A stretch of DNA of 64,000 nt from Lyngbya sp. CCAP 1446/10. Its GTDB lineage: Bacteria > Cyanobacteriota > Cyanobacteriia > Cyanobacteriales > Microcoleaceae. The position numbers and the translations under genes were made by a program. The stretch is from NCBI RefSeq assembly GCF_026130175.1, contig NZ_JAIGNI010000001.1, positions 1-64,000 of the forward strand, in the 5' to 3' direction. This document shows, one piece after another, positions 41,776 to 44,328 of the stretch (position 1 is its first letter; every line of letters begins with the position of its first letter). The notes beneath the pieces are model-generated. The model saw nothing but the letters and a program-made list of their open reading frames with translations, searched no databases and was not told the DNA's origin.

Positions 41776-44328
41776 TTAGACAGATGCAATCCGACGCTCG
41801 ATCGCATTATAGAACCGATCGCGCATATCATTCATGCTAACCTCAATTAACACTTGATTGTCAGCACTCACAACCCGCAAAGGTGATTCAGCACAGCAAA
41901 CTAAACCAATTTTCTGCCACATTTTGGTCAAATGTTCTTCCAGGTAAGACTCCCAAATTCCTTGATTTTTCGGCGCCACTGAAACTATAATGCAGTTGCC
42001 CATTTCACCAAATAAAATTTCATCCCAGCGGCCGACATTTGCCGAATTGAAACTGAGATTGATTTCTGCACCCATTTTAGCAGAAATACAGCATTCCGCG
42101 AGGGCGATCGCAATTCCACCTTCCGCACAATCATGGGCAGAACCTACCCAACCGCTGCGAATTCCATCGCGACAAACCGATTGCACTTTTCTTTCTAACT
42201 CAAAATCTATCCTTGGCGGTTTCCCAGCGACAATCCCGTGAATTGCCGCTAAATATTCCGAACCTCCCAAAGTAGGAGAAGTTTCGATTTTTGGGCTTTC
42301 AGATGAAAGTTCTGAGTTTTGGGATGATTCCCCCATTCCCAGCACATAAATTAAATCACCTTTCTTTAGCCAAGCTTGGCCGCAAATCTTCTTCAAATCT
42401 GGAATTAACCCCACCATTCCGATTACCGGAGTCGGATAAATTGGTTGAGGATTTCCCTCAGCATCAACCGTTTCATTGTAAAGAGAAACATTGCCGCCAG
42501 TCACAGGCGTTCCCAACTCCCGACAAGCATCAGCAATCCCGCGACAAGCTGAGGCTAACTGCCAATATCCTACAGGTTTTTCGGGACTACCAAAATTGAG
42601 ATTATCAGTAACAGCTAAAGGTTCAGCACCCACACAACTTAAATTTCTCGCTGCTTCCGCTACGACTGCTTTTGCACCTTCATAAGGATCGAGATAAACA
42701 TAACGAGAATTGCAATCAACAGTTGCAGCCACTCCAGGAATCATCCCCAGGGGCTCTTCCTTCTTGCTAAGGGGGGGATAAACTTTTGGAGTTTCCCTAC
42801 CTTGTGCCTTTGTAAATAGAGGAATTACCTCTTCTTCCTGTTTGCTTTCGGAAGCTAGAGAAACAGCATTTTCCCTCTGTAGATCCCCCTTAGCAAGGGG
42901 GTGTACTTCTAGCCCGTTAGCAAGGGAAGATTGGCAAGGTTCTAGCGGACGCAATCTGATCACCGCAGCATCCGCGCCTCCCGGTAAAACAACAGTATTG
43001 TTTTGCACTTGATGGTCATATTGGCGATAAACCCAGCGTTTAGAAGCGATGGTGGGAGTATCCAAAAGTGTCAGCAAAACCTGATTCCAAGTTTGGAAAT
43101 TACCCTGAACTTCGATGCCGGCTGCGGTGCATTCCGGCAACTTATCCGCCGTCCATTCCCATGCTTTTATAGCATATTCTGGCGGTTCTGTCAACAATTG
43201 TCGGTGATAAATTGGCGTGTTATCTGCCAAAGCAGTCGCGGTAATTTCGGCCGCGATTTCGCCTTTAAAGAGAATTCGGACGATCGGCTCTGCGATGACT
43301 GTGCCCGCGACTACGGCGTGCAATCCCCAACGATGGAAAATATCGATTAATTCCTGTTCCCGTCCTTTCTCTGCCACAAACAGCATCCGTTCTTGAGATT
43401 CCGAAAGCAAGTATTCGTAGGGAACCATACCGCTTTCTCGAACCGGAACTTTATCTAAATCGAATTCAATACCGACACCACCTTTAGCTGCCATTTCTGA
43501 TGTCGAGCAGGTAATTCCGGCCGCGCCCATATCTTGGGCGGCGACGACTGCACCAGTTTTGAATGCTTCTAAACAAGCTTCAATTAAGGATTTCTCTAAA
43601 AACGGATCTCCTACTTGGACTGCTGGGCGGTCATCCATTGATTTGTCGGTCAATTCTGCACTAGCAAAACTCGCTCCTCCCATGCCATCTCTGCCAGTAG
43701 TTGAACCGACATAAAGTACGGGATTTCCGATTCCCGATGCCCCGGATTTAACGATTTCTTGGGTTTCCATTAAACCCAAAGCCATGACGTTAACTAAGGG
43801 GTTTTCGGAATAAGCAGCATCGAAGTAAACTTCGCCGCCAACTGTGGGTACGCCGATGCAGTTTCCGTAGTGACTGATTCCCGATACTACGCCTTTGAAT
43901 AATCTCTGGGTTTTGCTATCATCTAAGTTGCCGAAACGTAGAGAGTTTAAAAGTGCGATCGGGCGAGCACCCATTGTGAAGATATCGCGGAGAATGCCGC
44001 CGACTCCTGTTGCTGCGCCTTGGAAGGGTTCGACTGCTGAGGGGTGATTGTGGGATTCAATTTTGAAGGCGAGTTGTAAGCCGTCTCCCAAGTCTATGAC
44101 TCCGGCATTTTCTCCGGGCCCGACCAGAATGCGATCGCCCTCTGTGGGAAACTGTTTTAATAGCGGCCGCGAATTTTTGTAGCAGCAGTGTTCGCTCCAC
44201 ATCACGCCGAACATTCCCAATTCAGCTTTGTTGGGATGGCGGCCGAGACGCTGAACGATTTCTTCGTATTCTTCGGGTTTGAGTCTTTCGGCGGCAATTT
44301 GTTCGGGAGAAAATGGGAGGTTTGACAT
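41776..44328 (-). CDS. purL: Phosphoribosylformylglycinamidine synthase subunit PurL
   Basis: An ~850-residue ATP-dependent purine-synthesis enzyme, from the better start [16 protein letters not shown] (44328). Motifs: [66 protein letters not shown] ([18 protein letters not shown]), and [14 protein letters not shown]. Typical cyanobacterial PurL is about 740-780 residues. Here residues about 477-521 are a foreign in-frame segment from a MITE-like element (42763-42897), replacing a loop just before [17 protein letters not shown]. Confidence 0.95.
42763..42897. mobile_element. 135-bp MITE-like element in frame within purL
   Basis: Inverted ends CTTGCTAAGGGGG (42763-42775) and CCCCCTTAGCAAG (42885-42897) bound exactly 135 bp (45 codons), keeping frame. 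It encodes hydrophilic sequence such as [20 protein letters not shown] and [11 protein letters not shown]; a third partial copy, GTTAGCAAGGGA, lies at 42916-42927. Confidence 0.8.

Follow-up and report, generated by a model that had tools for sequence, protein, structure and literature searches.

How did the two halves of PurL come to be joined through a long loop bounded by inverted repeats? PurL, like LigA, CysS and similar enzymes, is essential. The initial annotation had proposed that one 135-bp MITE-like element, framed by inverted 13-mers, encodes an additional 45 residues in this protein. The window analyzed here is a 64-kb stretch from a genome of 6.75 Mb in 171 contigs; below, genomes are numbered G, loci L and genera g. 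The gene and the parts of its linker are as follows.

41776-44328, minus strand: purL, phosphoribosylformylglycinamidine synthase subunit PurL, 850 residues (NCBIfam TIGR01736 and NF002290 above cut-off; Pfam AIRS and AIRS_C, two stretches each), with its start codon at 44328 and its stop ending at 41776
42736-42945, minus strand: 70-residue long-type linker joining the two AIRS halves (LEPCQ...GMIP; anchors RLRP and GVAATVDCN; AlphaFold2 model)
42875-42909, minus strand: eroded left arm GAAGTACACCCCCTTGCTAAGGGGGATCTACAGAG, intact as GAACCCCCCCAACCCCCCCTTGCTAAGGGGGGGCTACAGAG in G004 and G005
42783-42874, minus strand: loop interior, which contains IPLxxKxQGR and has no second genomic match
42737-42782, minus strand: eroded right arm TTTATCCCCCCCTTAGCAAGAAGGAAGAGCCCCTGGGGATGATTCC, intact in relatives as TCTCCCCCCCTTAGCAAGGGGGGGCC(G/A)GGGGGGGTTATTCC
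42907-42930, minus strand: possible third, degenerate unit encoding SSLANGLE, unit-like in its core only (SSLAKGLEEPPQPPLAKGG in G004)

The PurL linker and its inverted arms

Measured from RLRP to GVAATVDCN, the linker has 70 residues in the window strain, 12 in G046 and about 3 in the Thermus thermophilus PurL 3viu, and the annotated excess of some 70 residues was thus about right. Among the 80 best of 583 loci from named cyanobacteria, the closest relative is the PurL of Microcoleus sp. FACHB-61 (95% identity). In the AlphaFold2 prediction residues 463-527 lack secondary structure, score below 50 in pLDDT and are flanked by predicted strands at 455-458 and 532-538. As the model has a mean pLDDT of only 71, was built from 36 sequences and is also low at residues 195-240 outside the loop, the low loop values fit disorder but are no proof of it; on this model the linker is probably floppy. 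A second low-confidence loop is seen at window positions 42286-42324 (residues 669-681); it is shorter in Thermus PurL. An Rfam search of 42600-43100 gave no matches up to E = 1.

The annotated inverted ends are exact. They are two 13-mers, CTTGCTAAGGGGG (42763-42775) and CCCCCTTAGCAAG (42885-42897), that lie 109 nt apart, and the 135 bases of 42763-42897 are 45 whole, stop-free purL codons on the minus strand. Dinucleotide shuffling of purL produced an exact inverted 13-mer pair no more than 160 nt apart in 8 of 1000 cases, which makes a chance origin of the pair inside the gene unlikely; when the whole window was shuffled, some pair of that kind turned up in 15 of 100 cases.

The 13-mers do not mark the borders of the inserted DNA. 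Intact arms in relatives reach outward past them to GAACCCCCCC and GGGGTTATTCC, and in G005 the left arm GAACCCCCCCAACCCCCCCTTGCTAAGGGGGGGCTACAGAG and the right arm CTCCCCCCCTTAGCAAGGGGGGGCCGGGGGGGGTTATTC agree at 33 of 35 aligned positions, with gaps excluded. The outer halves of the arms are decayed in the window strain (19 of 30 matching). The longer arms of relatives indicate that the repeat-derived stretch is roughly 42737-42909, wider than 42763-42897. When 175 bp around the site were searched against the strain's own genome only the self-match was returned (E <= 0.001), and hence the repeated part is the ends rather than the entire 135 bp. The proposal of one mobile unit framed by the 13-mers is therefore not supported, the interior being single-copy and the arms of relatives more extended, and the suggested genome search for additional copies succeeded for the ends (below) and failed for the whole.

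The interior motif IPLxxKxQGR is also found in G001 and G010, both of which lack recognizable arms. Reading the interior as a decayed unit was rejected, since five of the six local alignments tried scored no better than those with dinucleotide shuffles; the score of the sixth (G017) was matched by 17 of 1000 shuffles. The possible third unit has a 12-nt arm at 42913-42924 that is 92% complementary to 42763-42774.

The arms belong to a dispersed palindrome family

The repeat unit is a near-palindromic hairpin of about 40 bp, C7-AR-C7-TTGCTAA-G7, having the consensus GGAACCCCCCCARCCCCCCCTTGCTAAGGGGGGGAGnAAGAG and ends of the type GGAACCCCCCC..GGTTCC. Some copies stand alone and others are paired in an inverted two-arm cassette. 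As each 13-mer is one side of a self-pairing hairpin, any two copies of the unit will resemble terminal inverted repeats. The palindrome CCCCCCTTNNNAAGGGGGG occurs 114 times in the strain's own genome (0 for the reversed control). Across the 28 genomes of the genus that were searched, the own genome among them, it has 23 to 259 copies per genome; of the 60 family genomes, 8 have none. When one mismatch is allowed, the 13-mer is present 51 times in the own genome (30 + 21), versus 7 (4 + 3) for the reversed control. On direct reading the core palindrome is open in four of the six frames, where it encodes PL[A/S]KG, PPLLRG or PPLARG; peptide strings such as PPLLRGG occur in cyanobacterial proteins, which serves only as a lead.

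In the own genome 22 of the 27 exact 13-mer sites lie within ORFs of at least 200 residues (13 ORFs, PurL included). Only 8 of the first 50 of the 114 palindromes do so, which indicates that the palindrome family lies mainly outside long ORFs. Within the same 50 a two-arm cassette like CCCCCCTARCCCCCCTTNNNAAGGGGGG...CCCCCTTNNNAAGGGGGATTTAGGGGGAT (two mismatches per arm permitted) surrounds 23 of the 42 palindromes outside such ORFs versus none of the 8 coding ones. All 8 coding sites fall among 12 palindromes centered on GCT/AGC, GGA, ACT, AGT, GTT or GAT. The other 38, with different centers (AAA/TTT, AAG/CTT, CAG, AAT, GTA), all lie outside long ORFs; as the center groups were set after viewing the data, the association of coding with center is only a lead.

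The cassettes sit within longer elements that have other terminal repeats. One such element is in the window.

33398-33534, no strand assigned: MITE-like element of 137 bp with 18-bp perfect terminal inverted repeats TCAATACGGTTCACTTAA and a hairpin cassette at 33433-33512

Its DNA fold has an energy of -47 kcal/mol (z -10.45) and it is located outside long ORFs. Similar copies are present elsewhere in the genome, and other cassettes are in elements flanked differently (GGTGTCAACTTAA). The outer terminal repeat of this element, TCAATACGG, is not seen around the PurL loop.

The unit lies in frame in other genes

The unit is in frame in nine more genes named by NCBIfam equivalogs over cut-off: CysS, DnaX, RsmE, MenD, ThrB, LigA, ThiL, MutL and TsaB, the last two identified through 13-mer sites having one mismatch. 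Orthologues of seven of the nine were fetched from among 17 genomes, giving 76 distinct alleles. The frame is kept in 72 of the 76, and in 35 of the 39 that bear the unit, with no internal stop in any in-frame allele. Since genes were picked where the own genome is filled, these counts give no estimate of the hit rate across genes generally.

ThiL has both empty and filled alleles. Five of its nine distinct alleles are empty (42-45 nt in the stretch compared) and four are filled (the shortest 147 nt); the shortest filled allele exceeds the shortest empty one by 105 nt, an insert that has two inverted arms. In G017 the ThiL arms agree at 39 of 43 aligned positions, with gaps excluded. Insert-free alleles were also seen for CysS (1 of 13) and LigA (1 of 11), both in G023. 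No target-site duplication could be fixed when empty and filled alleles of ThiL, CysS and TsaB were compared by eye, the flanks being too diverged. A candidate duplication, GCGAT at both ends of one filled ThiL allele, was discarded as the empty alleles do not fit it.

The out-of-frame alleles are CysS and LigA in G020, LigA in G012 and MutL in G017, to which PurL in G015 may be added. The frame losses, at L140 and L182 (G020), L183 (G012), L165 (G017) and L051 (G015), are seemingly one-base differences in C/G runs. As G020 is a one-contig genome, such frameshifts are either sequencing errors or real homopolymer variation.

PurL linkers of relatives

PurL was searched in two overlapping sets of 39 and 61 genomes. 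The 61-genome set has 29 members of the host genus, and the linker could be read in 23 of these; contigs end at the loop in G021 and G049, and G003, G007, G016 and G053 gave no PurL or a remote match. In G007, which is 99% complete, the best PurL match is remote (26%), the gene being missing from the assembly or too different. Together with the gap in G022, the two contigs that stop in the loop are a warning to those who assemble such genomes.

All 23 readable genus PurLs have a long linker, 225-573 nt (75 to 191 codons) between anchors, and all 23 carry IPLxxKxQGR. Comparison of PurLs thus did not bear out an insertion at the level of the strain. In a PurL tree of 53 rows the 23 genus rows form one supported clade (100/100). 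The remaining 30 rows comprise 23 with short linkers (81-93 nt), 4 with the unit and 3 that are long without it. The four unit-bearing PurLs from outside the genus are two in the sister genus g22 and two in g25. In g22 the site is short in G046 and filled in G044 and G045, the latter with an assembly gap in the loop. The unit-bearing linkers are on supported separate branches (g1/g22 and g25), and the genera between them have short linkers. G015 (frameshift), G022 (gap), G045 (gap) and G074 (short C-terminal piece only) were kept in the tree despite these defects. PurLs that were read but are outside the tree are those of G040 and G057 (short), G066 (other DNA in the linker) and ten order-level genomes, all ten with short linkers except G030 (about 117 nt). 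A loop found throughout the order and unlike any genomic repeat would have spoken against the initial annotation; the linker is short in most of the other genera and families read, and its ends belong to a repeat family.

The label "unit" changes 10 times on the PurL tree, and at least 9 of the changes are forced by starred branches. We take many of the changes within the genus to be decay below the search pattern rather than new insertions. The armless G001 and G010 are nested among armed relatives, indicating that their arms were lost.

The loop takes several forms in the genus. The PurL of G006 has a tandem array of eight identical 36-nt repeats GEPSLGKGGLQE plus one variant, and these units share the center triplet GGT in place of GCT. 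Three to four palindromic units are present in G018 and G011, and the left unit is lacking in G001, G010 and G023. The right arm of G001 and G010 differs from that of G023 with length unchanged, which argues for conversion or decay rather than excision. A second, GTAG-type repeat, GTAGGGGCGGTGCCCCCGTGCCCGCCCT or close forms of it, is nested in the PurL arms of G008, G015 and G051. This second repeat is present in 17 of 17 genus genomes searched (two mismatches permitted; reversed control 0), and one of the G008 copies (C112:149626-149653) is inside purL. Two genus loops are defective, that of G015 being out of frame and that of G022 gapped. The PurL insertion is thus old and recurrent, and it continues to change, through tandem expansion, arm loss and nesting of the GTAG-type repeat.

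The PurL junction in other cyanobacteria

We surveyed the junction in the 80 best of 583 loci from named cyanobacteria; eight of the 80 (L199-L206) are of the host-genus type. Among the 80 the anchor-to-anchor stretch is 81-294 nt (median 108), is at least 120 nt in 35 and is in frame in all. The Argonema linker (L209) has at least 21 matches in its own genome, self included, and as a query gave at least 50 matches in the genome of L221, at least 40 in that of L207 and at least 47 in the genome of L216, a Nostoc in which the PurL linker itself does not contain the L209 sequence. No more than 40 candidates per genome were scored, and many of the L209 matches are confined to about 24-30 nt on one side. 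For the linker of Nostoc mirabile (L210), 32 matches were counted in its own genome, self included, mostly over 42-47 nt; it gave 25 matches in the L217 genome and none in Argonema. These counts indicate that unrelated repeats entered the same PurL junction in different lineages.

Examples are the C/G-run palindromes (Microcoleus and two other genera), GQASRL..GQDAHPTR (Argonema and UBA11372) and STERLALSEVERSRS (Nostoc). Candidate further cases are GGACAAG or NLQP runs elsewhere and repeats in the Moorena linker, read in the linkers themselves. We lean somewhat toward the view that throughout the cyanobacteria the PurL junction serves as a landing pad, where the dispersed repeats proper to each lineage become protein, and that in Microcoleus a GCT/AGC-type sub-lineage of the palindrome is largely protein-borne and its A/T-centered sisters lie outside long ORFs.

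Other PurL loci had different structures. At L092 (G066:C6:116818-119492) PurL is apparently split at the linker into open frames of 473 and 337 residues, with a ferredoxin-like frame (GCLMGSCHACEVE) between the halves. The PurL frames of L067 (G038), L096 (G065) and L097 (G063) are 1241-1287 residues long and interrupted near residue 160; the L067 insert is intein-like by eye, beginning CLVGTETLV and ending LITHN.

Origin of the loop

The reading that we favor, with a probability of about 0.8, is that a dispersed palindromic repeat of the REP/MITE type inserted in frame into purL long ago and was later remodeled into the present loop. What survives of the proposed MITE-derived loop is that its residues come in part from a dispersed repeat with inverted arms, tolerated in the linker of an essential enzyme. 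A copy of the unit would have entered the junction of the two catalytic halves in or before the genus ancestor, and would have been tolerated thanks to the flexibility of this linker and to a core palindrome that is open in four of six frames. Tandem duplication, arm loss, point decay and nested repeats would then have altered the loop, nearly always by multiples of three. The hairpin units themselves may be dispersed by transposition in trans, through some putative transposase; those landing in a flexible junction and in a stop-free frame would stay in proteins as loops that drift, presumably neutrally. The PurL loop is presumably translated and the enzyme would remain active.

A clearly less probable alternative is that the linker was enlarged once and that its content was spread or homogenized mainly by gene conversion and slippage between copies rather than by transposition. 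Such processes would account for the tandem 36-nt runs of G006 (GEPSLGKGGLQE), the GGT center common to those units and the replacement of the right arm at equal length in G010 versus G023. Against them stand empty ThiL orthologues beside 105-bp two-armed inserts, the occurrence of the unit both in MITE-like elements and in a wide range of unrelated genes, and unit-bearing linkers in the distant genus g25.

That the loop is one recent MITE of 135 bp, with the 13-mers as its ends, inserted into the purL gene of the window strain, is highly improbable: the exact inverted 13-mers in a 45-codon frame and the existence of MITE-like elements of nearly the same size, one of them at 33398-33534, are set against the lack of a second genomic match to the 175 bp, the long loop of all 23 readable genus members, arms that extend past the 13-mers in relatives and the fact that TCAATACGG is not seen around the loop. 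Equally little credence is given to a selected, PurL-specific functional segment that resembles the repeat merely in composition, since genus-wide retention of the long loop and of IPLxxKxQGR must be squared with the same DNA unit in nine other named enzymes, a range of 75 to 191 codons between anchors inside one genus and other cyanobacteria that have no loop or unrelated repeats instead.

On the favored reading of an old, remodeled insertion, palindromic repeat DNA has become protein sequence in many genes of one cyanobacterium, essential enzymes included, and empty, single, two-armed, tandem and nested stages are all seen among living relatives. PurL is a natural insertion series at one point of an essential enzyme, and thus the cost or usefulness of the loop is directly testable.

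Comparison with known repeats

Intragenic REPs and Rickettsia palindromic elements (RPEs) have been described in other bacteria, as far as the available text of PMC10969869 and PMC3733652 goes. RPEs are described there as dispersed palindromes in frame in metabolic and other genes, and the unit is likewise in frame in PurL and nine unrelated conserved genes named by NCBIfam. It differs from RPEs in its cyanobacterial host, its ~40-bp length with C/G runs, its tandem expansion and the nested second repeat, and the likeness is drawn from descriptions of RPEs. Intragenic GTAG/CGTC REPs are, in the available text of PMC3733652 (2013), short hairpins, single or dimeric, some within DNA repair, ligase and tRNA synthetase genes; the PurL unit resembles them as a short hairpin, single or dimeric, inside genes. 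Unlike them it is untagged, no constant GTAG/CGTC tag being seen beside CCCCCCTTNNNAAGGGGGG when the own genome and relatives were read by eye; a GTAG-tagged repeat is instead nested within the PurL unit in some relatives. Mobilization of the unit by a RAYT was not supported: among the seven Y1/RAYT-type loci of the own genome, not one has a copy of the unit within the flanking sequence fetched (two mismatches permitted; two loci partial or interrupted; the transposase search covered the Y1 type only). As it has neither the tag nor a RAYT link, the unit is not classed as a REP. By analogy the PurL unit works like RPEs and intragenic REPs, and we class it with the protein-coding palindromic repeats as a new variant. 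No literature on in-frame palindromes in Microcoleus or in PurL was found among the titles and abstract openings of open-licence papers, a set outside which most subscription papers lie.

Cyanobacterial MITEs are named in the available text of PMC10969869 and PMC3733652. The likeness to these lies in the cassette copies inside elements such as that at 33398-33534, with its 137 bp and 18-bp terminal inverted repeats; the coding copies that were read differ in lacking those outer terminal repeats, and the comparison is with MITEs in general. Inverted ends of the MITE kind are present, matching at 33/35 in PurL of G005, 39/43 in ThiL of G017 and 19/30 in PurL of the window strain, but copies of a whole element are not, the 175 bp at PurL matching only itself and the arms alone being multicopy.

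Several other repeats were noted in the window. An inverted pair CAATACCTCTCGGTTAAG, about 100 bp apart at 49545-49647, is possibly a sister MITE. Clusters of AGAAACCGGGTTT inverted repeats lie at 18563-18721 and 49294-49521, and a run of short CTTCCCTCTTCC-type repeats is found at about 44741-44829, upstream of the ORF at 44830.
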